A DNA stretch of 64,000 nucleotides from Prinia subflava (taxonomy: Eukaryota > Chordata > Aves > Passeriformes > Cisticolidae): positions 558,001 to 622,000 of the forward strand of contig NC_086266.1 in assembly GCF_021018805.1 (NCBI RefSeq), given 5' to 3'. The notes under the pieces are model-generated. The model ran no database searches and was not told the origin of the DNA. It saw only the letters and a list, made by a program, of their open reading frames with translations. Position 1 is the first letter of the stretch. Each line of letters begins with the position of its first letter. Below, in pieces: positions 11,231 through 59,395 of this stretch. The translations under genes and the position numbers were made by a program.

Positions 11231-11463
11231 CTCTGGGGCTGTTGAGGGAGGCCTCGGCCGCCTTGCCGCCGTCCCCGCAGTGGCTCTGGTCGAACGGGAG
11301 GCACTGGTCCCCCGTGCCCGCCACCACGTCGGCGTTCTTGGCCAGATCCTTGGTCTCCGTCAGGGATCTTGCTTTGTAGACTTTCCTGGTGTTGGTGTCT
11401 GATAAGTACAGGGATTCTGACACTGGATCAACAGCCAAGTAATATTTATGTGCAGGACTTGTA
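11231..11463 (-). CDS. TENM1: TENM1 exon (window exon 14): NHL propeller blades
   Basis: A 233-bp exon with acceptor TGTTTCAG|TACAAG and donor CCCAGAG|GTGAGG. It encodes (S)[60 protein letters not shown] and [18 protein letters not shown]. The segments [20 protein letters not shown] and [11 protein letters not shown] point to teneurin-1 rather than teneurin-2, -3 or -4. It accepts either the upstream microexon or the exon at 16280 directly, since both end in AG. Confidence 0.94.
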
Positions 11464-14168: not shown

Positions 14169-14189
14169 CTGTGTCTTGTGTCTCTGTTC
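14169..14189 (-). CDS. TENM1: TENM1 microexon (window exon 13): splice insert in the NHL propeller
   Basis: A 21-bp microexon encoding (R)-N-R-D-T-R-H-(S), found by searching for the short insert known in the teneurin propeller (site B). The acceptor is CTGCCTTTCCAG|GAACAG and the donor CACAG|GTAAGT is near-perfect. Upstream is a CU-rich tract with a candidate branch point (TTTTAAC or CTGAAC) and a TGC about ten bases from the AG, a setting typical of neuronal microexons. Its frame-neutral skipping changes L-R-NRDTRH-S-T to L-S-T. In teneurins this insert alters partner recognition in trans. Six perfect 24-bp repeats end about 103 bp upstream in the transcript sense. Confidence 0.92.
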
Positions 14190-16279
14190 CTGGAAAGGCA
14201 GTTCAGGGTTAAAAGGAAAGAAAAGACAAGGAATGTTAGTGCTGGACAGAGCTGTGTTCTCTGCCTGAGTGCTCACAGCCCTACTGACAGTACCCCACTA
14301 ACAAACCATTGGTTATCCCCACTAACAAACCATTGGTTATCCCCACTAACAAACCATTGGTTATCCCCACTAACAAACCATTGGTTATCCCCACTAACAA
14401 ACCATTGGTTATCCCCACTAACAAACCATTGGTTATCCTCTCACTTGGTGTTCCTTTCTCTCAAACTGCTCCTTTGCACAGCCCAGTTAATTCTGAACAA
14501 CCAGCACACAGAATCACAGAATTGGTTAGGTGGACATTAAATAAGAGAAATTTCATGTATTTATGTCCAAAACCTTTCCTGCGTTTGCCTTGTCCCTCAA
14601 AGGGAATGGGAGGCCGGGGTGATAATTACAGAGAGTCATTAAGGGCAGCACAGCCCAGCTCGGGCACTCTGTGACTCCAGGTTTGCTCCTGTCTGCTTAA
14701 ACTGAGCCCCATCCGCTGCTGCATGAGGAGCAGTGTAATTGTATTAATTATTAACATGGTAAGTCTGCAGGCCCAGTGCTGTGACCTGACATGATACTCT
14801 GCATGTTTGCTGTGGAATTATGCAGCTTCCTGCAAAAACACCCACCATGGTATATTTTAACTTTTGGAGAAAATGTATGGAAAACCTCACAGGAATAAAA
14901 ATCAGCTTTACTAATTCTGCAGTTTGCAGAAATCCATGTGCAAGGCCTGTTCTAAAGGCCACTTACCAGATCCTATTTAACTGGTGACTAAAAGCGCTTT
15001 GAGCTTTCTGGTTTGACAGCTGGTGACACACACGGCCACAAGGCACCTGCGAGGGGCTCCTTGGCCAGGCCCCAGGGCTCAGGCTCACCTGCTCTCCCAG
15101 GTGAGAGGTGCTGCTGTACCTGAGCTCCAGCATGCCCCAGGCAGGCTGAGGTGCTGTACCTGAGCCCCAGGCAGGCTGAGGTGCCGTACCTGAGCCCCAG
15201 GCAGGCTGAGGTGCCGTACCTGAGCCCCAGGCAGGCTGAGGTGCCGTACCTGAGCCCCAGGCAGGCTGAGGTGCTGTACCTGAGCTTCAGACAGGCTGAG
15301 GTGGTGTACCTGAGCTCCAGCACGCCCCAGGCAGGCTGAGGTGCCGTACCTGAGCTCCGGTCGGGCGGTGTTGGCGTACCTGAGCCCCAGGCAGGCTGAG
15401 GTGCCATACCTGAGCCCCAGGCAGGCTGAGGTGCCATACCTGAGCCCCAGGCAGGCTGAGGTGCCATACCTGAGCCCCAGGCAGGCTGAGGTGCTGTACC
15501 TGAGCTCCAGGCAGGCTGAGGTGCTGTACCTGAGCTCCAGGCAGGCTGAGGTGCTGTACCTGAGCCCCGGTCAGGCGGTGTTGCCGTACCTGAGCTCCAG
15601 GCAGGCTGAGGTGCCATACCTGAGCTCCAGGCAGGCGGTGTTGCCGTACCTGAGCCCCAGGCAGGCTGAGGTGCCGTACCTGAGCTTCAGACAGGCTGAG
15701 GTGCTGTACCTGAGCTTCAGACAGGCTGAGGTGCCGTACCTGAGCCCCAGGCAGGCTGAGGTTCCATACCTGAGCCCCAGGCAGGCTGAGGTGCTGTACC
15801 TGAGCCCCAGGCAGGCTGAGGTGCCGTACCTGAGCCCCAGGCAGGCTGAGGTGCCATACCTGAGCTCCAGGCAGGCGGTGTTGCCGTACCTGAGCTCCGG
15901 TCGGGCGGTGCTGCCGTACCTGAGCTCCAGGCAGGCTGAGGTGCCGTACCTGAGCTCCGGTCGGGCGGTGTTGCCGTACCTGAGCCCCAGGCAGGCTGAG
16001 GTGCCGTAACTGAGCCCCAGGCAGGCGGTGTTGCCGTACCTGAGCTCCAGGCAGGCTGAGGTGCCGTAACTGAGCCCCAGGCAGGCGGTGTTGCCGTACC
16101 TGAGCTCCAGGCAGGCGGTGTTGCCGTACCTGAGCTCCAGGCAGGCTGAGGTGCCATACCTGAGCCCCAAGCAGGCTGAGGTGCCGTACCTGAGCCCCAG
16201 GCAGGCGGTGCTGCCGTACCTGAGCTCCAGGCAGGCTGAGGTGCCGTAACTGAGCCCCAGGCAGGCGGTGTTGCCGTAC
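14190..16279 (-). other. TENM1: TENM1 intron between exon 12 and the propeller microexon
   Basis: A 2.1-kb intron that must be handled correctly for inclusion or skipping of the 21-bp microexon. Its first 1.2 kb is the donor-derived 30-bp array (15116-16290), and it also holds six 24-bp repeats near the microexon (14293-14436). Only about 0.7 kb is non-repetitive. Confidence 0.88.
14293..14436. repeat. 24-bp array, six identical units, just upstream of the propeller microexon
   Basis: Six perfect copies of a 24-bp unit containing AACAAACCATTGGTTATCCC. In the transcript sense the array ends about 103 bases before the microexon acceptor, in the zone where splicing regulators of microexons usually bind. 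Perfect identity suggests very recent expansion. Its effect is unknown. Confidence 0.95.
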
Positions 16280-16290
16280 CTGAGCTCCAG
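15116..16290 (-). repeat. 30-bp minisatellite derived from the exon 12 5' splice site, 39 units
   Basis: On the minus strand each unit carries the exon end plus donor (consensus CTGGAGCTCAGGTACGGC) and then a variable part encoding TSACL or NTACL. Units are exactly 30 bp apart except for two 40-bp steps near the distal end. I count 39 boundary copies; 36 keep AG|GT (including the authentic site at 16280), and three (16010, 16070, 16250) have AG|TT. About six copies read GTATGG instead of GTACGG. The unit length is a multiple of three, so all donors share the same phase. Confidence 0.95.
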
Positions 16291-16529
16291 CACGCTGACG
16301 GTGCTCCCCGAGGGCAGCAGGCGCCGCACCAGGTTGAAGTCCCCGACGTAGAGGCTGCCGTCGGGCGCGGCCGCCAGCGCCACGGGCGCGAAGAGCTTTG
16401 CGGCCAGCGCGGGCCCGGCGCAGGCGGCGCAGGCCACGGCGCGCTGCTGCCCCGTGCCCATCACCGTGGAGATGACGGGCGGCTGCTGCGACAGGAACAC
16501 GTTCTCCCCGTCCCCTTTGTGCACGATGC
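16280..16529 (-). CDS. TENM1: TENM1 exon (window exon 12): first NHL blades of the beta-propeller; its donor is tandemly amplified
   Basis: A 250-bp exon with acceptor TCCTTCAG|GCATCG. It encodes [80 protein letters not shown] and LEL(R). The NHL propeller carries adhesion and latrophilin-binding surfaces in teneurins. The authentic end is taken as GAGCTCAG|GTACGG at 16280, because this stops exactly where the family sequence requires and gives the phase (AG|G) the 21-bp microexon needs. Immediately after it, the boundary is repeated about 38 times in 30-bp units. The exon is extremely GC-rich, and several Ser/Asn positions of the family are Ala here ([12 protein letters not shown]). Which donor is used in vivo is untested. 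Confidence 0.9.
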
Positions 16530-18310
16530 CTGAAGGAGGGCATGGAGAAAACACACACCAGACAAGCAAATGCATTCACACCGCTCTGGGTTCTGGATCA
16601 CAAAATCCTCTGCAAAACCGATTACCCAAACAGCCACAAACAGCTGATATTTTACAGACCATCACAGGGCTCCACTGACCTTTCCCCATCTCGCTCACCC
16701 CAAGCTTTGCTGTCACCATTTCATTGAGCAGTGGCTATTTTAAAGCCAACATCAGGAGGGGAACTCATGGTTGGTTAATGCTCTAACAAATTGACTGCTA
16801 ATTGCAGTGCTATCTGATTTCTTGGGGATTACTGCTTTAATATTCATTTTATTCATAAATTTTTATTAGGAAGCAGAGGAATTTCTTAGGCAGTTTGAAT
16901 ATTTAATTAAAGGAGATTAATAGCAGGACCACTATGCATTTTTCAGAGAAGAGCACCAAGTGGCAGTGCAAAATCAATATTCAAATTCAGCTGTGAGTCC
17001 TTCATGGTCTATGAAAATGGTGCCAAGTGCAGCAAAGCCGAGTTAAGAGTCAAGCAGCAATTGTGAGGCACAGTGATTGTCTCCCCAGCAGAAACATCCT
17101 CCCTTCTGCCACAAAGGCTAAGGCAGTGTCTTCCAGCACTGCATGCAGCACACATTATTCAAAGTCTCCACTGGTACTGATACCAGGACTAGTACAAAGA
17201 TGCATTTTCTCAAGCTGACAGCTACAGTGTTTATTTTAAGTAACAATGAGGTAATATATTTAGGCAGTATCTCTGAAGCGACAGGTGACTGCAAGAATTT
17301 GGCCACTGCAAACAGAAGATAGGTGCTCTGTTAGATCCTGGTCCAAAATTTCTGCTTTCCCCTGGAAGGCCCAGTGCCTCATCAGAAAACTGGCACTATT
17401 AAAGGAACAAACACAGGGGAATTTACTTTCTGGAGGACTCGTGCTGGGAAATGAGAATATTCTAGAAGTACATGTTGAGACATGTCTGAGTTTTCCCAGC
17501 GTATAGCAAATGTATTCATGTATTGTCTCTACCAACTTTTGTCTGAACCATTTTTGGGACTTTCAGGTAAATCTGAAGATAAAATTCACCTTAGAAATTT
17601 GTGAATGTTACCACAGCTATTTTGCAGGGAATTATATTTTTAAAAAATTATTTATGAACAATAGAGGACAGAATGCATAGATTGGAAATATGCCTGTAAA
17701 ATAAATGGCAATATTCTCTCTTATGCAGTGGATAAAAATGCTATGAAATGAAGATGCTGCCCTTTATCTGAAATTACAATGTTAAGGTAATCTTTCAACA
17801 TCCTCTTACAAATGCCAGTAAATAATTAGAGCTCTGGAGAATATCTTTTGCTGTCAATAAATGTAAGTGTGTGCTTAATATCAGGCTTTCAAGCTGCTGC
17901 TTTAAATTTAGTTGATTATTGCTCTGTTGCACTGGGCTTGAAATTACCTTTAAGCATAAAGTCCCTCTAAAACTACTCCTCCTTGCCCCAGATAAATAGA
18001 AACGGAATCAGTGCACTTGCCCATCAGAAAAAATTAATTCAACTAACACCCTGAAAATTTGGTTAATAGCACATTCATTGGTATTCATGAGATACAGGTG
18101 TCTGTAAAAGACCTCAGTGTAGGAACTGATATTTATGGTATCTGTTCTCTTCTTGATGATGAGAAGTGCCCTGATGATCCTCCAGACTGACAGAAACTGC
18201 CCCCAGTGCCTCTCCAGGGGCCAGGGGTGGGTGCTCAGGGCTGTGCCAGCCCTCAGCAGCCTCTGGACGTCCCTGCGTGGCCGCTGTCACCGGCTGGGAG
18301 GGTGGCACGC

Positions 18311-20442: not shown

Positions 20443-21470
20443 CTGCAAACAAATAATTAAAGATCTCTCAGTCTACCTATTTCTCAGTGAACTGCCAGGC
20501 AGTTTTTCATTCCAGGTTTTGATATTCATCTGTCAGGTAATGATGCCACTAATTTTCCTCTGCCTGATTGCTATTGTTGTATGGTATTCTTTGAAAAAAA
20601 GGTGTTAAGAGATTAGGATGTTATTGCAGCTATAGTTACTACTGCTTCAAAGGAGAAAATTGTCTGTGGTATCAGTTATGGATTTCATAAGGTTATAAAT
20701 CTCCTCCAATGACTACTGACTTGATTGTTTATTGCATTTCTGCTAATTACCTGAATAACAGCCTAAATACAAAAGAATCCATGCTATAACAAATTGGTTT
20801 TAATTTGTTTGCTGACTGTAAAAAGGATAGTTAGGCAGAAATGGATTGACAAGCTGAATATTTCTAGAATTACACATTTATCTTAACAGGCTTGCACAAT
20901 ATAAAAATACCTGATGAAAAATCTTGAATTTCCCTAAGGATGGTGGGTCTTAGGAACTCAAACTGATTAAAACACTTTTTCTTTAGTTCTTCCATAAAGC
21001 AAAACAAAACTTCATAATTTTGACATCTGTAATATACCAACCTTTCAAAAAATTATTTATCTCTAACTTTACTAGATTTCAGTGAAACTCATTTATGAAA
21101 GAAGAGTATTTTTTTGACACCAAAAAGAAATTAAAATCTCTGTCAGCTTACCCTCATTGTGGGGTGTTATTTTCTGATCCAATTAATTTATAGCACTTTT
21201 CTGAGGTGACAGAAATTTCACTGCATGAACGTGGACTTTAGTGCCTATGGTGTCAGACTTTAGGAGTCAGCAAGTACTGCTCTTTGCAGTCCCAAAATGG
21301 ATTTCAAAAGAGCCACTGATCATCTGCACCAAACCCCAATTCTTTTCATACAGCTGCTGAGAAGAATAATCAGTGCCAGACCTGCAGCTTGAGGGCTGCT
21401 GCCAAAACACAGGTCAGGAACAGAGGACAGTGAGGCAGACAGAGACCAGGAGTGCAACCTCCCCTGAAAA

Positions 21471-21810
21471 CCTGTCCTTACCTGTCCTTACCTGTCCTCA
21501 CCTGTCCTTACATGTCCTCACCTGTCCTTACCTGTCCTTACCTGTCCTTACCTGTCCTTACCTGTCCTTACCTGTCCCCACCTGTCCTCACCTGTCCTTA
21601 CCTGTCCTCACCTGTCCTCACCTGTCCTTACATGTCCTCACCTGTCCTTACCTGTCCTCACCTGTCCTCACCTGTCCTTACATGTCCTCACCTGTCCTTA
21701 CCTGTCCTTACCTGTCCTTACCTGTCCTCACCTGTCCTTACCTGTCCTTACCTGTCCTCACCTGTCCTTACCTGTCCTTACCTGTCCTCACCTGTCCTCA
21801 CCTGTCCTTA
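21471..21810 (-). repeat. 10-bp array of near-consensus 5' splice sites, about 34 units
   Basis: On the plus strand the units read CCTGTCCTTA or CCTGTCCTCA. On the transcribed strand this is CAGGTAAGGA or CAGGTGAGGA, so almost every unit carries CAG|GTAAGG or CAG|GTGAGG, matching the donor consensus at most positions. Three units have ATG in place of AGG at the junction (ACATGTAAGG). The array lies in the intron, well away from either exon. Confidence 0.95.
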
Positions 21811-21877
21811 CCCTGGGCAGACCCAGACACACCCGGCACAGGCAGGGCTGCAGAGCCCCCAGCCCAGGAGGGGACAG

Positions 21878-22135: not shown

Positions 22136-23100
22136 GCTGCAGGGCTGCATGAAGCTGCACAGGAGCTCACGGAGCACTGCACTGAAATCCTCTCCTCGTG
22201 CTGCAGCACAGGGGGACGTGGGCTTCACCCCTGGGCTCTGGTGTGCAGCATGCACAGGGTGTTTACTGACCCAGAACAGAAACTGCTGCTGTGTCACCTC
22301 GGTGTGACTCTGAGGAAAGGGCCTCAGTGAGGAGCCTGGGACTGGCCACATGCCAGCAAACATTTCTCCAAGTTTAAACAGAACCATTTGCATGTGGAAA
22401 TATGCTCAGAAAGTCTTGTTTTCTGTAACTGGTTATGTGATCAGGGCTGCCAATAACCCCGAAGAAAAATATAGATGTTTATAGTACTTGGAAAACAAAA
22501 GCAGATGGTTATAATCCTGACTTCCAGGACTTCAACCTGCTCCAATTTAATTTAATTTAAATGAAAATGGAACAGAATGCATTATTAAATGTTGCTAATA
22601 TACTGGCAGAAGAAACTATTTTTGACAAAAATTCATGTGCTGGATGCAGATAAAGGTCCCTGAGTAACTACAGTGTGCCAAATTAAATAAAGCTTTATTG
22701 GAATCTAACAAACCATGCTAGTAATGCTTTTAAAATGTCAAGATTTTTGCCCCTCTTTGGAAAGAAGCATAGTTAACCTAAACTTGAATAAAAAAAAATA
22801 AGCATCAATTAAATAATTTAGAAGTTGTTATTCAGCACTATTGTGTAAGCTTTATTAATCTTGAAACACATGAAGCTTATCTAGTCCTAATTTGGGACAC
22901 TGACTGCACTATCATTTCATGAGGTGCTATGTATCTGAATTAAAACATTTTAAATCTGGATGTGCACTGGACTCCTCAGTCACTGGAGGACTCTTACAGG
23001 ATGCAGAGGGAGCAGGGTACACTGTTCCCTCTGCAGCAGGAGGCAGTGCCAGCCCTGCACACAGGGCACAGCAGGCTGTGCTGAGGAGAGCCCCAGGGGC

Positions 23101-23426
23101 CACCTGGGACACACCTGGGACCCACCTGGGACACACCTGGGACCCACCTGGGACACACCTGGGACACACCTGGGACCCACCTGGGACCCACCTGGGACAC
23201 ACCTGGGACACACCTGGGACACACCTGGGACCCACCTGGGACCCACCTGGGACACACCTGGGACCCACCTGGGACCCACCTGGGACCCACCTGGGACACA
23301 CCTGGGACACACCTGGGACACACCTGGGACCCACCTGGGACACACCTGGGACCCACCTGGGACACACCTGGGACCCACCTGGGACCCACCTGGGACCCAC
23401 CTGAGACACACCTGGGACCCACCTGG
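23101..23426 (-). repeat. 11-bp array of donor-like motifs, about 30 units
   Basis: Plus-strand units read CACCTGGGACA or CACCTGGGACC. The transcribed strand gives CCCAGGTGTGT and CCCAGGTGGGT, that is CAG|GTGTGT and CAG|GTGGGT. The 11-bp period means successive sites change phase, unlike the 30-bp array at 15116. The array is in the same intron as the 10-bp donor-like array. Confidence 0.95.
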
Positions 23427-25146: not shown

Positions 25147-27537
25147 CTTGGAAAAAAACACGTCATTGTATCTACAGCCAAGAAAAATGCAGAACTGTAA
25201 TAGTAAGAGCAGGCAATTATTTTACATTTCACGATTATGATGTGAACACAATGCCCCTGGAACAAGTGGTTTATTCCAGCAATGCAGCAGTCAGGCACAG
25301 GACAGAAGGTCCAGCATCAGACACTGCTTGGTCACCTCCCTGCATGGCAGGCTGTGTGTTTGGTAAGAGCCTCTTCCTCTGCTGCTTCCCTCTTATCTGC
25401 TGGGGAGTGAACCCTGCATCCGTGCACATATTCTCACATACAATCTGTGCAGATTTACTTTATTACTTGGTTTACTTGAACGGAATAAAATTAAAAATTT
25501 TAAATATACACACACCTTCTATCATATGCATTGTGATGTTAAGCTGCTATCCTGCTTTGGAGACTTTAACTTGGGGAGTGTTAAGAAGGAAAAACCCCCT
25601 CCTGCTGAACCATGTGTGCAGTGAGGCCAAGCTCCAGCAGCAGGGGCAGGGCGTGGAAGGAGCAGCACTGGGACACAGCAGGGACACCTGGCAAACAGGT
25701 GAGCCCCAGGGAGAGCAGGTGAGCCCAGAGCCCGGGCCCTGCTGCCAGCCTGTCTGAACTGGGACCAAGGCTGGGCTGGGCTGGGCTGGGCTGGGCTGGG
25801 CTCCCTGTGCCGTGGCCACGGGCACACAGCAGCCAGGGCTGCCAGAGCCTGGCCTGCAGGGGAACAGGGACACTGGCCCCGACCTCCTCAGTGATGTGGG
25901 CTCGGAGCCACAGACAGGACCCAGCTCTGCAGAGAAGAGGAATCCCCTGGGACAGGCTGTGAGGAGGGGCAGGCAGAGAGCAGCACGGCTTCTTGGAGGA
26001 TGCAACCACTGTCACCCAAAAGCCACCTGGAGACTGGACTGTGGTTAACGAGGCTAATGATATCAGTGCATCTCTGTACTAATGAATCCACCCGTCACTG
26101 TTAAATTCATCGTGCTTGGAAAAAGACAAACTGTTTTGTTTGTATTTTCCAGTTTCTACATTTTCCTTATTTAACAATAGATTGCCTCACTTTCAACCAC
26201 TTCTATTTACACGTTGCAAACGTATCCCTGTCACAGCACTGCTGCAGTGCAGCTGGAGGCCTGCCAGCACTTGTCATTTCAACATATGAAATGTAGTGTT
26301 GCCAGGGAAATCCTGCTCCCTTTCTTGTTCCTGATTTGCAGTGTTCCCCTTCCTTCCTGCTGACATCCCAGCTGCCCTCTCTGTCATACAGCTGACATTC
26401 CTTTCCATTTTTTAACAGGAAAGCAGGAAGAAATATTCATGCATTAATACATGCTGATATATCTCTGCTATTATTCTCAGTTAATTTTTGCTCAATTCCC
26501 AGAACTATACAATGAAACTCAACACTCTAAGAAATCTCCAATGACAAAAAAAAAAAAAAAAGGGAAGGAAAGGAAAGAACTGGGGAGGAGTTTCTGAGCA
26601 GATTGCATCTTTGAGCACCTCAAAGAGCCAGGCACTCCTGGGGAGCACTGGGACCCAGCTCTTTCTCACTGGTGTGCAGCAGTTACTCTTAATTTATGTT
26701 CATGAGTTTCCCTTGGTACATTCTGTGAATGCTGTGACTGTCCACTGGATGAAGCATGGCAATAGCCATGGAGGTGTTCAGACATAATTCAGTTCAAGCA
26801 GAGGCCTCACATGTAGAATAAAGTAGCAACACTTTCGTGAGGCTACAGGTACCCTCCAAAGTATCTTCCAGGCTCCCTTGGTGAAATAGAAAGAGAACCC
26901 AAAAGAGGTCTTAGTCTTTAAAATCTAACTGCTCAAACAATACTAAAAAATAAGGGCATTAATCTGACCTGAGCTATGTTTTGTTGTGTGTTCCACTCTC
27001 ACAACCTCTTTTAAGTCCCAAGTAAAACAGCAGTTAATTATTAGGTTAATTAGAAATTTAAACACTTATGGGAGTGTCAAGAAAAACAAAGTTTAAAAAG
27101 AATCCTGAAGATCATGTTAAAATTGCTCTACCTTGGAAAGAAAGTAATAAATCTGAGATAAAGCTGTGAATGGATGAAACACTCCTAGGAATGTTCCAAG
27201 CATCGTCTCACACTGATCTTTGGGAAATTGAACTCTTCATCTGTAACTGGGAATGGTTTTGTGCATCACTATCAAAGCAGGGCTTCAATAATAATTCATG
27301 TTAGCATTCCCCACCTTCTTCTACTTGAAGGTAAGAAATAAAGCACCTCTAAATATTAAAAAGTAAAGAAAGAATAAAGACAAGAGAATCTTGTTAAACA
27401 GCACTGAATAGATATGCACTGGTGCTACTCTGTCAAGTGAACAACATTACAGCAGTTATTTGCTCGCTGTCTTTGAAGCCTGGCTAAACCTGGCTCTGCA
27501 ACAGAACAAACTGTTCATTCAAAAGTCTTTTCATTAC
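25147..27537 (-). other. TENM1: TENM1 intron between exons 9 and 10
   Basis: A 2.4-kb intron with no large array. It has a short GGGCT run (25769-25800) and an A-rich tract near 26547-26563. The rest looks unique, and no further exon was seen. Confidence 0.75.
25769..25800. repeat. Short (GGGCT)n run
   Basis: About six pentamers (CTGGGCTGGGCTGGG...). Too short to comment on further. Confidence 0.9.
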
Positions 27538-46190: not shown

Positions 46191-48034
46191 CTTAAAAAAG
46201 AAAAGAACAAAACTGAGATGGATCAGACTTCTGTACCAAATGAAAATACATTTGCTCATGGCTTGACACCAAAGTTTAGGTATAAATGTCTCCCTGCTCC
46301 TGCAGGCAGAGCTGCTCTGTGCCCAGAACGTGGTGCTGGTGAAATTCTCCATTTGATGACAACTGTGCTGGGGCCCCCTGCACTGCCTACAACGTGAGCA
46401 GCAGCTCCTCTTTTCAAGCACTTGGGTCCCTCTCGGGATTTGCTCTAAACAATCTGCAGAAAACAACGCTCTTCCTCCACCACAAACCTGATTCTTGCTC
46501 AGCAAACCTGATTTAGTGAATTCTAGAGCCAGGGAATGAATTATCTTATAATGATCAAGATAAAGTTAACACATTCGAGATTTTTTTTCAAGAAACAAAC
46601 GTGAGACCTTATGCTGCTCATCTCTAAAAATTGGATAATAATCTCACTTTGTGACGTTTTAAGGAGAAACACTCAGACTTTGCAAAAAAACCTGTTGAAT
46701 TTCATTAGAATATAACTATTACATTTTTATAGTAGACTAATGACTTCTAAAAAGATCTGAAAGCTTTACCTTATTAGGAATATTCTTAGCAATCAGCTCT
46801 AGGAAAAACATCATTAGCAGTAAGTAAAATATGTAAATCCTCAGACAGAAAGAGAAGAGATTTAATGGAAGAATTATGGTAGGGTAAATAATAGCTTTGT
46901 CTCCTCACACCTTCTATTTTTTACACATTTTTCTCCTTCCTTACTACAAAATTCACAAATGGACTCATCCCGAAGATATCTTAGACTGGGCTATCTTTCC
47001 TGTCTGTGGGTGTTTTCAATGAATGAATCTGTTATTTGCCCTGCACAGAAAGCTGTGCCAGTGGGCACAGAGGCACCTCTGTCACACCTGTCTGGACTCA
47101 GACTCTGCTTTCCCGAGCCAGATTTCCATCGGAGCGAGGGTGATCATGCAGGGCTGGATGGGACTGGTGTGTTCCAGTGTGGGGCACAACTGGTGTGTTC
47201 CAAGGGCACAGTTGGTGTTGTGTCCCAGGGGGGCACAGTTATTGGTGTTTTGCCCCGGGGGGCAGAGTTGTTGGTGTTTTGTTTCAGTGAGGGGCTCAGT
47301 TGTTGGTGTTTTGTTTCAGTGAGGGGCTCAGTTGTTGGTGTTTTGTTTCAGTGTGGGGCTCAGTTGTTGGTGTTTTGTTTCAGTGTGGGGCTCAGTTGTT
47401 GGTGTTTTGTTTCAGTGTGGGGCTCAGTTGTTGGTGTTTCAGTGTGGGGCTCAGTTGTTGGTGTTTTGTTTCGGTGAGGGGCTCAGTTGCTGGTGTTTTG
47501 TTTCGGTGAGGGGCTCAGTTGTTGGTGTTTTGTTTCAGTGTGGGGCTCAGTTGTGTTTTGTTTCAGTGTGGGGCTCAGTTGTTGGTGTTTTGTTTCGGTG
47601 AGGGGCTCAGTTGTTGGTGTTTTGTCTCAGTGTGGGGCTCAGTTGTTGGTGTTTTGTTTCAGTGTGGGGCTCAGTTGTTGGTGTTTTGTTTCAGTGAGGG
47701 GCTCAGTTGTTGGTGTTTTGTTTCAGTGTGGGGCTCAGTTGTTGGTGTTTTGTTTCAGTGTGGGGCTCAGTTGTTGGTGTTTTGTTTCAGTGAGGGGCTC
47801 AGTTGTTGGTGTTTTGTCTCAGTGTGGGGCTCAGTTGTTGGTGTTTTGTCTCAGTGTGGGGCTCAGTTGTTGGTGTTTTGTTTCAGTGTGGGGCTCAGTT
47901 GTTGGTGTTTTGTTTTGGTGAGGGGCTCAGTTGTTGGTGTTTTGTTTAAGTGTGGGGCTCAGTTGTTGGTGTTTTGTTTTGGTGAGGGGCTCAGCTGTTG
48001 GTGTTTTGTTTCGGTGAGGGGCTCAGGTCCTTAC
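46191..48034 (-). other. TENM1: TENM1 intron between exon 4 and the EGF microexon
   Basis: A 1.8-kb intron. Nearly its entire first half is the array at 47165-48026, which begins a few bases after the exon 4 donor. The half next to the microexon is AT-rich and ends in a strong pyrimidine tract. Confidence 0.85.
47165..48026. repeat. About 32-bp minisatellite abutting the exon 4 donor
   Basis: Roughly 25 copies on the plus strand of a 30-34-bp unit with GGGGCTCAGTTGTTGGTGTT and TTGTTTCAGTGT. The transcribed strand is A/C-rich (AAAACACCAACAACTGAG). The first unit starts about 8 nt into the intron, so the array grew right up to the donor. Plus-strand open frames (Leu-Val-Phe-Cys-rich) are artefacts. 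Confidence 0.94.
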
Positions 48035-48230: not shown

Positions 48231-48765
48231 ACACACACGGCTGTGGGACAGCACTGCAAACACACTGCAAACACACTGCAGACACACTGCAAACACACTG
48301 CAAACACACTGCAAACACCCTGCAAACACCCTGAGCACCAGGGCTAGACACACACACGGCTGTGGGACAGCACTACAAACACACTGCAAACACACTGAGC
48401 ACCAGGGCTAAACAACACACACAGGTGTGGGACAGCACTGCACACTGCAAACACACTGCAAACACACTGCAAACACCCTGCAAACACCCTGAGCACCAGG
48501 GCTAGACACACACACGGCTGTGGGACAGCACTACAAACACACTGCAAACACACTGAGCACCAGGGCTAAACAACACACACAGGTGTGGGACAGCACTGCA
48601 CACTGCAAACACACTGAGCACCAGGGCTAAACAACACACACGGCTGTGGGACAGCCCTGCACACACCCTGCACACACACTGAGCACCAGGGCTAAACAAC
48701 ACACACGGCTGTGGGACAGCCCTGCACACTGCACACACCCCGAGCACCAGGGCTAACCCCTCTGT
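48231..48765. repeat. Compound array upstream of the exon 4 acceptor (11-bp units within longer units)
   Basis: Plus-strand 11-bp units GCAAACACACT are nested in longer units bounded by GAGCACCAGGGCTA and TGTGGGACAGCACT. On the transcribed strand the 11-bp units read AGTGTGTTTGC, giving repeated GTGTTTGCAG acceptor-like motifs. The nearest lies only about 35 bases upstream of the real acceptor at 48221. Confidence 0.93.
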
Positions 48766-56300: not shown

Positions 56301-59162
56301 TTAAAAAGTTCTTGAGATTTGTCTAAAACAGGCAGCAGAGTGGAAGCACCAATGTGCTACTGAGCAGTCCATGGAAAATGCACATTTCATCATGCACCGA
56401 GGAAATTCCAAGGCCATTTTCACTACTGCAGGCTCTTTGTAGTGAACATCCTTGTCCTTGCACATGAGAATGACTGACACCCGTACTCTGCAATTCCCTG
56501 AACCTGAAGAGTTTCTGATTACGAGGAAATGGCTTCACCTAATTATTTTTTCAAGTTGCAGTTTTTGATGTTTAATTTTGAAACCTATTTGAGATGTCTT
56601 GAACTATATTAATATACTGCATTATGCCTTCATTTCTTTTTGAAGTACTTTACTGTAAAAAATGCAGACTTCTAATGATTTTTAAATTACTCCACTCTGC
56701 ACATATCAATTTACAACAATTACAACATTTTGCATTTTTCAAAGCACTTCAGTTTTAAAGAGGTTTTTTGCTTCACCAAGATATCGAAGGAAGAGGCTGC
56801 TGATTCATTTTTGCCCTTTGTAAAATTACCACCAATCTTGCTAGGAGAGCTTAACCAAAAATAGATATGCTAAATATATACCATCTCCATGTAATCATTT
56901 TAGGATGAATGTTTTTTGTGACTAAGAACTGCCAGTATTCTTTTCCCAATCATAATTAGGTTGCTTCAGTGATATAAATGGATTCAGTGGAATTATGACA
57001 AATGTCCTGGAGTAAGGGGACAGAAAGTGGCCTACTTATGTGAGCAGAGTCTAAAGGAATGAATGCAGGACGGGCTGGCAGAGGCAGCAGCTCTGTCACA
57101 GCTCTCTCAGTCTCTCATATTTAAGGCACAGTGCTGCAATTAATTAATTAATTAGTGACTCGGGGCTGGATTCTCACCTGAAGCACACTGGGGCTGCACT
57201 GCTGGTATCACTGCAGGTACACTGATTTATGCAAGGCCCTGCCCCCTGGAGAACTCTGTGTCTGTTTTCTCTCGATATTTCTCTCCCTTAATCTGGAGGC
57301 CCCATGTTAAAGGTGTCAATCTGAGAAGAGAATTTGAGTTCTTTTGTTCAGTTGATGCTGCACCTTCAATTACCCAGAGCCTCCCTTCCACCCGACAGGA
57401 GCAGTCAGTGTGAGGAGTTTGATTTTCTCTTTCTGAGCAGCACAGCCTCAAGGGGGGTGACTCATTAACATCAAGGCATTTTGGGTGACAGCCTATAAAT
57501 AAAGCAACAAAGTTCCACAGACACTGAGTAGAAAGATGATTACACTGAAGTGCTGGTGACATTAAATAGTGTAATATCAGCCTCCCATGCTCCTGGCTGT
57601 GTCGTGTATTGGCAGATCACACCCCCAGGGCACAGCTCAGCTGGGGAGTCTGCTGCAGGTCACCCTGGGACTGGGTTCCACACACTGTCAAACTGGGTTC
57701 AGCACAAAACTTGTGTTCTCCACGTCTCGCAGGGGCGGGGGAGGACTGAATGAGAAATGGAACTCAGTGTCTGTGCAGTTCTCTTGGGCACATCTGCTGT
57801 CACATGGCTAAATGTCTGTGAGCACCTTGGAGTGATGTGCCAAGGGATGACCAAACTAGGAAAAATCTAAAATTAAATGGGCAAAGTGATAAACAAGAGA
57901 GCAATGGATCAACAGGCTAATCCATCTCCCTCATGGTAAATACATGTCACTCTGCTACCATACAGAACAGTCACAACACTTTGATCTTGTCCATACAAGA
58001 AACCAAAGACAGACAGAGGCATTTTTAGGTTTCTTCTCCTGATCACACATGGCTGTAGAAAAGACAACAATGTTGTTTTGACTGGTGTAACTAAAAATCT
58101 CCCAGAATCTCTCCAGGTGAAGTTCAGTTGACACTGCCTAAAGAAGGCAGAAGAACCAGAGGTGTGTTATCTGTGTTTGTAGTCAGCTGATAGCAAGAGC
58201 CTTTACAAAGATGCTCATAAGCAGAAAGGCAAAGCTTAAAGGAAAACAATGTCATCCCTGGGAGAGTAAAATTGAAATCTGAGCTAACAAAGGAAAGTGG
58301 CTTTTCATGGAAGTTCAATATTGTAGGGTAGAAAGAGGCCAAATAAATCTGAAACAGATATCCAGCTAAGGATATTGAAAGGATGGGTCTGAACAGAGCT
58401 GAACAAAGAGCCAGCCTAAGTTGTGTCCTACACATAGTAGAGGATTAGCAATACCAAGTAGCTGAACAACTTTCAAGCCATATTGAGCTGCTGTTATTGA
58501 GAACCAATTTAAGCAGAATGAAAACATATCCTGACAGCTCTTTGGAGTTCTGCAGGAGGATTTTCTGGCCCTGAAGGGATGGCAACTGTCTGGCAGTAAC
58601 TCAGGAAACAGAAGGAGGATCTGGAGGTGGTGCAGCGATATTGGGCTGTGCCAGTCTCAGGTCAGAGCAGAGGTCAGGCTGGACACTGGAAAGGGCTGCA
58701 GATAATTTGCCAGTTTTTCACCTCACAGAAAGAAACATGATTGCAAGACAGCACCTATTCAAAGAGGAATGCAAGGTGCACTTACCAGCAGCCAGGGCCA
58801 GCCCTAATTGAAACAATTTATCCAGGAATGGTAGACTACCCTTCATTTTCAGTCTCTGCGTGAAGCTTCACTTTCAGAACACTAAACAGAAACTATGAGT
58901 GCCAAGCAAAATGTGAAGGATGATTGTTATTTTTTGGTAATGCTCTACAGAAAATCAAACAACATGAACAACATGGTCTTTTCCAGCCTCAAAAGTCCAT
59001 GAATGACTCCAGAGCCCAGGCTGGGCCTCAAACATTGGCAATTCCTAAGGATACACACGGGTCACAGTCACTCCTCATCTCTCCTCTCCCACCCAGGCCG
59101 ATTGTTGTCCTTCCCCTCCCTGCCCCTTTTCAAAGGGGAGTTTATATCGTTTGAAGAGCTGG

Positions 59163-59351
59163 AGAAGGACAGGCAGGGAAGGTGTCGCAGGGGTGGCTCG
59201 AGAGGGGCAGGCAGGGAAGGTGTCCCAGGGGTGGCTCCAGGAGGTGGATAGGGGAAGGTGTCCCAGGGGTGGCTCCAGGAGGTGGATAGGGGAAGGTGTC
59301 CCAGGGGTGGCTCGAGAGGGGCAGGCAGGGAAGGTGTCCCAGGGGTGGCTC
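59163..59351. repeat. Minisatellite near the exon 3 donor (about 37-bp units)
   Basis: Five copies containing GGGAAGGTGTCCCAGGGGTG followed by GCTCGAGAGGGGCAGGCA or GCTCCAGGAGGTGGATAG, so two alternating sub-types. It starts about 45 bases downstream of the exon 3 donor in transcript sense. Confidence 0.93.
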
Positions 59352-59395
59352 GCCCTCTGCAGCCCCCCAGCCCCCCGTTGTCCCTGTCCCCGTAC

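Follow-up and report, generated by a model that had tools for sequence, protein, structure and literature searches.

In chicken, the edge of a coding exon, together with its splice donor or acceptor, has been found copied through the adjoining intron, a phenomenon described as exon stuttering (Hron et al., 2026, PMC12954441). In the parts of that report drawn on here, it involves 236 introns of 115 genes, with 1-44 copies (median 4); 190 of these introns lie on dot chromosomes, 10 on other microchromosomes, and 36 on macrochromosomes, and in more than 90% of the chicken cases the source lies no more than one base from the exon border. A further mark of stuttering is an array length that varies between individuals. 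The same parts discuss a link of stuttering to GC content, recombination, and GC-biased gene conversion (gBGC), and mention that it occurs also in GC-rich gerbil genes, for which the data are not shown there. In humans, the units of the IFI6 (G1P3) minisatellite are reported to supply splice donors, two downstream units being used in mRNA (Turri et al., 1995, as cited in PMC4526556). GC-ward bursts of change, such as those of Fxy and of human exons (PMC2631073) and that of gerbil PDX1 (PMC7574485), are tied to recombination by the authors in the passages cited.

We found a comparable array at an exon of the teneurin gene TENM1 in a songbird, Prinia subflava. Measured against the cited parts of these reports, it resembles exon stuttering in that an exon edge and its donor recur in imperfect tandems of tens of bases per unit, with a copy number within 1-44, in GC-rich, fast-changing coding sequence. 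Its source lies at the exon border and includes the splice site, the units running through CAG|GTAC. It differs from the published stuttering in being found in a songbird, on a 9-Mb contig (8.99 Mb) rather than on a known dot chromosome, and in having a 30-bp period that keeps the reading frame. As in IFI6, the units carry a donor consensus and begin at the donor of the exon; two downstream IFI6 units are reportedly used in mRNA, whereas the TENM1 copies are candidate donors. Zhuo et al. 2007 reportedly described introns that arise from tandem arrays, by tandem duplication carrying splice sites; at TENM1 it is the donor of an existing intron that is multiplied, with no sign of a new intron. 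The preliminary description of this locus knew of no described case of a coding-exon donor turned into a minisatellite on this scale, a claim that gives way, as far as the cited parts go, to exon stuttering in chicken (PMC12954441) and the IFI6 donor minisatellite (PMC4526556).

The analyzed window is a 64-kb stretch of one contig (C20:558001-622000) and holds at least 13 teneurin exons and one microexon, all on the minus strand (Table 1). TENM1 was the top match of the window's teneurin in protein searches (best 120 of 554 matches listed). A tree built on 692 residues, which 10 of the 13 exons supplied, grouped the window with the three sampled Sylvioidea (support 0.99); on only the five less GC-rich exons the window still grouped with Nicator and Sylvietta, with low support, and Cyanoderma fell elsewhere. 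The propeller exon, whose start and frame are backed by TENM1 homology, begins at 16529 after the acceptor CCTTCAG|GCATCG and ends in CTG GAG CTC AG|GTACGG. The microexon, 2.1 kb downstream, had been called a regulated teneurin splice site, and in keeping with this some of the TENM1 proteins compared carry the 21-nt insert (NRDTRHS) and others skip it. Earlier work, in the parts cited, gives the teneurin microexon splice site a role in TEN2 and TEN3 (PMC7195488, PMC11058771).

Table 1. Coordinates of the TENM1 features in the window
Feature	Position	Strand	Details
TENM1 NHL-propeller exon	16280..16529	-	250 nt, phase 2; homology to TENM1
Minisatellite	15120..16279	-	38 units, 30 bp long in 36 cases and 40 bp in 2, each with an extra CAG|NTA site
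First in-frame stop, TGA	15571..15573	-	Array read as coding from the exon
40-bp unit	15310..15349	-	End identical to the last 16 nt of the propeller exon (GCGTGCTGGAGCTCAG)
Distal 40-bp unit	15120..15159	-	End identical to the last 13 nt of the propeller exon
Strong donor-like site CAG|GTGAGC	15083..15091	-	Last exonic base 15089, just beyond the array, 10.69 bits
Alternative 21-nt microexon	14169..14189	-	Encodes (R)NRDTRHS; acceptor CAG, donor CAG|GTAAGT
Next constitutive TENM1 exon (STSPAHK...)	11231..11463	-	First base 11463 from CAG acceptor; donor GAG|GTGAGG; homology

Tandem Repeats Finder placed the repeat at 15134-16304, with period 30, 38.7 copies, and 86% matches. Parsed from the propeller exon outward, it gave 39 CAG|NTA sites with last exonic bases from 16280 to 15120, that is, the authentic donor and 38 extra sites. 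They are spaced by 30 bp except over two 40-bp units, and this regularity (36 of the 38 units at 30 bp, 2 at 40 bp) indicates that no whole copy was missed. The dinucleotide after CAG is GT in 36 of the 39 sites (the authentic one and 35 extra) and TT in three (16250, 16070, and 16010). The parse and the TENM1 homology thus agree with the preliminary description, according to which the boundary |GTACGG of the exon at 16280-16529 heads a 30-bp array that runs into the intron, with 35 extra copies keeping AG|GT and three having lost it. The 31 bp at 15119-15089 were considered as a 40th unit and not accepted (p = 0.073). With up to 3 mismatches, one array unit matched the window 27 times, always inside the array, against a mean of 0.00 in 100 shuffles, which excludes a chance origin. 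A search of the same assembly with the exon and about 80 bp of the array gave 16 matches, a lower bound because the search skips common words, and every one lay at C20:573-575 kb. In viral contigs, a weak test, we found no exact match to a 27-nt piece of the unit.

The unit resembles the end of the exon that it adjoins. The sequence CTGGAGCTCAG, terminal in many units, equals the last 11 bases of the propeller exon, and upstream of it the exon (GAGCACCGTCAGCGTG) and the unit (GGCACCTCAGCCTGC) match colinearly. Compared with the exon, the type A consensus body gave p = 0.0004 (20,000 mononucleotide shuffles) and ranked 3 of 234 exon 16-mers and 28 of 62,743 minus-strand 16-mers; the type B body was weaker (p = 0.016, ranks 27 and 405, respectively), and local alignments without the shared 11 nt were weak (p = 0.033 and 0.038). 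The residues LEL were found in 15 of 15 aligned vertebrate TENM1 rows, which makes the exon the likely source of the unit. We read the 30-bp unit as a copy of ~26 bases from the coding end of the propeller exon followed by GTAC, and the authentic donor of a coding exon apparently seeded the minisatellite that it heads. The donor had earlier been named the seed of the array, a reading that the exon-end homology supports.

The array is probably an exon-derived minisatellite of the exon stuttering kind, a tolerated passenger at a local hotspot of instability, recombination, or gBGC near a chromosome end, and unstable local DNA is a likelier reason for it than a function in splicing. A short duplication across the exon-intron junction would have copied those coding bases and GTAC, and the duplicated copy would then have grown to ~39 units. 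A hotspot of instability and GC-biased gene conversion near the chromosome end would also have driven the GC-ward amino-acid change of the exon.

The donor had been described as amplified about 39 times. A donor matrix gave 8.36 bits for the authentic site, and 27 of the 39 sites (26 of them extra) lay at 8.13-8.53 bits, like the authentic one; nine sites without +5G were weaker (4.4-4.6 bits), and the three without GT scored -1.6 bits. U1 duplex energies were -7.1 to -7.7 kcal/mol for the GT sites and -1.7 for the TT sites. Ten other donors of the gene scored 4.85-12.75 bits with the same matrix, a set that left out EGFc and two donors unmatched by the patterns given. Past the array, the site with last exonic base 15089 is 1191 nt downstream of the authentic donor and in phase, yet behind a TGA; a second stronger donor-like site is at 14967 (10.75 bits).

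Sites as strong as the authentic donor were counted over the whole window. On the sense strand, 128 of 3855 GT sites had at least its score, 60 of these in arrays at 21470 and 23100, and on the opposite strand 35 of 2946. The first array (21470-21812, minus strand) consists of AAGGACAGGT units with 16 CAGGTAAGG and 13 CAGGTGAGG sites, near-perfect donor consensus sequences that each outscore the authentic propeller-exon donor; it is intronic, and each of the two flanking exons, 25149-24879 and 20443-20299, is more than 1 kb away. The second (23100-23426, minus strand) is an 11-bp array deep in an intron, with 15 CAGGTGGGT and 14 CAGGTGTGT donor-like sites. Neither has an exon beside it, and for this reason we did not accept them as additional cases of donor amplification.

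The preliminary description saw in the TENM1 array a supply of dozens of competing or buffering donors that may set how the propeller insert is spliced, in effect a donor bank. U1 bound at many equal sites would buffer the loss of a donor or delay commitment, and so tune inclusion of the NRDTRHS microexon. The 26 extra sites with scores like the authentic one, the nearby microexon, and the retention of CAG and TA in 39 of 39 sites, both demanded by the parse, speak for this reading. Against it, nine sites are without +5G and three without GT, and the constancy of CAGGTA is unexceptional: the 36 units of 30 bp have 16 invariant columns, no more than 6 of them follow one another when the unit is read circularly (p = 0.23), and variation is as low or lower in 4 of 30 circular windows, the CAGGTA window counted. 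Column variation thus gave no signal of selection on the donor motif. Moreover, the stronger donor-like array more than 1 kb from any exon indicates that donor-rich arrays in the window need no splicing role. We consider the donor bank unlikely, and the earlier claim is not upheld.

The exon itself has changed strongly at the protein level. Between 56 and 61 of its 82 residues (68-74%) are identical to those of each of 11 birds and one turtle, while eight pairs among those species (seven bird pairs and one bird-turtle pair) are 93-99% identical over the same exon. Relative to Catharus, the balance is 12 FYMINK residues lost with none gained, and nine GARP residues gained with one lost; the GC3 of the exon is 0.98. 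Seven of the 57 residues invariant in 13 amniotes are changed in it, against 0-5 in a leave-one-out over 13 species (Anolis 5/62, Nicator 3/60), and some of its derived states are common to Sylvioidea rows. Identity to Catharus is 93-100% in 8 of the 13 exons and lower in EGFb (81%), EGFc (78%), EGFd (86%), e29 (90%), and the array exon (71%); the GC-ward tendency recurs in EGFb, EGFc, EGFd and, less strongly, in e29. GC3 is 0.91-1.00 in exons 62551-62347, 59596-59396, 48218-48035, 29618-29498, and 16529-16280 (71-90% identity to Catharus) and 0.31-0.73 in the remaining eight TENM1 exons (93-100%). Over the 13 exons, identity drops as GC3 rises (rho -0.72, p = 0.005); its correlation with distance to arrays was not significant (rho 0.34, p = 0.25), and the nearest array to the accelerated exon EGFb is 2.9 kb away. 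In 200-bp bins, GC is 0.64-0.71 over 15001 to 16600. It is lower on both sides: the next two bins upstream of the exon have 0.46 and 0.34, and the three that follow the array have 0.39-0.51.

There is thus a lineage-specific GC-ward excess in part of the gene, as in GC-biased accelerated exons, found at the protein level only. The burst in the propeller exon fits, we infer, a local hotspot of GC-biased conversion. Fxy in mouse, the human W->S exons (PMC2631073), and gerbil PDX1 (PMC7574485) likewise show, in the parts cited, a local GC-ward amino-acid burst in a conserved protein. TENM1 differs from them in that its burst is seen at the protein level only and in the minisatellite at the exon.

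The assembly comprises 1.12 Gb in 537 contigs, one of them of 154 Mb. C20 has 8,985,111 bases and starts with CCCTAA repeats; none were found in its last 2 kb. The TENM1 window lies 0.56-0.62 Mb from the end that bears the telomere repeats. The share of repeats with a period of at least 7 is 10.6% in the window, compared with 0-2.1% in eight 10-kb samples taken on other contigs; three of these samples contain 164-591 N. The window bins exceed the other contigs in repeat density (p = 0.001). Along C20 the density is patchy: the repeat share is 0.012 in the first 10 kb; 0, 0.131, 0.062, 0.005, 0.154, 0.068, 0.004, and 0.169 in eight 10-kb samples at 0.2-1.0 Mb outside the window; and 0.3% and 3% at 2 and 5 Mb. 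The excess of the eight flanking C20 samples alone over the other contigs was not significant (p = 0.094).

One study reports, in the part cited, that a portion of 4A became attached to the sex chromosomes in Sylvioidea and that 9.6-20.7 Mb segregates as an autosome in Acrocephalus (PMC13333021). C20 might, at a guess, be the autosomal piece of 4A. We found no published location for TENM1; PMC13333021, PMC9327509, and PMC12954441 do not name the gene in their main texts. A rearrangement, the split of 4A, could have put TENM1 near a new chromosome end, as in the case of Fxy; recombination would then have rewritten exons GC-ward and stuttered the exon edge. The result would be a length-graded ladder of in-frame insertions in a propeller loop, beside a synapse-switching microexon and individually variable by copy number. 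We regard this sequence of events as improbable.

An ordinary intronic minisatellite could also merely abut the propeller exon, for arrays are common in the window, which has 18 or more besides this one. For a placement test, 19 arrays covering 11% of the window bases were picked from 43 overlapping Tandem Repeats Finder rows and randomly placed outside exons; the short arrays at 25769, 35995, 42052, 45607, 59436, and 62071 were omitted. An array lies within 5 bp of 1 of 14 exons (expected 0.07, p = 0.064), within 15 bp of 2 (0.17, p = 0.011), within 50 bp of 3 (0.51, p = 0.012), and within 150 bp of 4 (1.45, p = 0.045). Arrays are therefore closer to exons than chance, only mildly. One of them (47204-48026) starts 9 bp beyond the last base of the EGF exon 48218-48035, just past its donor, and was rejected as exon-derived: its unit is unlike the exon end by eye, and BLASTn-short gave no match of at least 20 nt. 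Such an array, without visible exon homology, speaks for mere abutment. At TENM1, the exact identity of 11 nt, and twice of 13-16 nt, between the unit and a conserved exon end, and the colinear match upstream of the 11 nt, make mere abutment very unlikely. Exon homology was seen only in the array 15120..16279, and the BLASTn-short screen would miss short homologies elsewhere.

Other arrays near exons of the window have features of their own. Acceptor-like TGTTTGCAG units occur in the arrays at 48252-48756 (minus strand), which begin ~34 bp upstream of the EGF exon 48218-48035. The donor nonamer of EGFc (59396, minus strand), CAG|GTACGG, is identical to that of the array exon; 44 bp beyond EGFc lies the start of a 38-bp array (59158-59352).

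Tandem arrays are readily mis-sized, and the copy number or the whole array could be an assembly error. The 38 units, however, comprise 22 distinct sequences (the commonest is GTACGGCACCTCAGCCTGCCTGGGGCTCAG), so that the array is more than a single unit copied over and over. The contiguity of the assembly and the start of C20 in telomere repeats suggest, in addition, a long-read assembly, and we give an artefact very little credence.

The unit equals 10 codons, and most sites therefore stand in the phase of the exon. Counting the 39 sites and that at 15089, 33 of 40 are in phase. For 24 of the 33 the frame is also free of stops, and 21 of the 24 have GT, the authentic one included. Read from the exon into the array, the frame meets no stop as far as 15574; phase is lost at the seven sites between 15310 and 15120, both included. 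Selection on the reading frame was considered and nothing is claimed, the single stop in the array being about as expected by our own estimate. That the array is exonised, the frame running on so that a tandem repeat of 10 residues is made from some of it in a propeller loop, is hardly credible: the period of 30 and the 24 open sites would allow it, but among 3006 candidates (~1.5-4.7 kaa) no annotated protein carried the repeat at E<=1 in a database clustered at 90%, which may hide repeat-bearing forms; 27 of the 28 matches to a 319-aa query span 18-29% of it, about the share of the exon; P0126, which aligns further (36%), proved on inspection not to be array; and one stop is, by our estimate, roughly the number that array mutations would predict.

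If the array is a passenger, as we prefer, splicing would occur mainly at the copy nearest the exon, or at the nearest few. If it slipped to a later copy, every unit passed would lengthen the protein by 10 residues. The frame would hold as far as the 23rd extra site (20 of the 23 have GT); farther on, slippage would meet the TGA or lose the frame. Because the period keeps the frame over the first 23 extra sites, most splice errors would be mild and the array tolerated. Judged from its sequence, the likeliest main effect of the array would be mild in-frame splicing noise.

In the cited part of the chicken study, the stuttering screen used BLASTn-short with thresholds of at least 20 nt and 42.1 bits (PMC12954441). 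The TENM1 array falls below them (best match 16 nt, 32.2 bits), and BLASTn-short of 13 exons against 13 introns of the window gave 0 matches of at least 20 nt. By its sequence the array belongs to exon stuttering by concept, though the published screen would miss it; the exon-derived unit being too short for that screen, current counts of stuttering may be too low. What is new is a songbird TENM1 case near a telomere-bearing contig end, where the exon concerned shows a GC-ward burst specific to the lineage. If our reading is right, exon stuttering would not be confined to the dot chromosomes of chicken and would reach a conserved neuronal receptor in a songbird. A single exon would join an exon-seeded repeat, a GC-ward protein burst, and a position at a chromosome end, and it would offer a natural test of the splicing machinery facing dozens of near-equal, frame-compatible donors.
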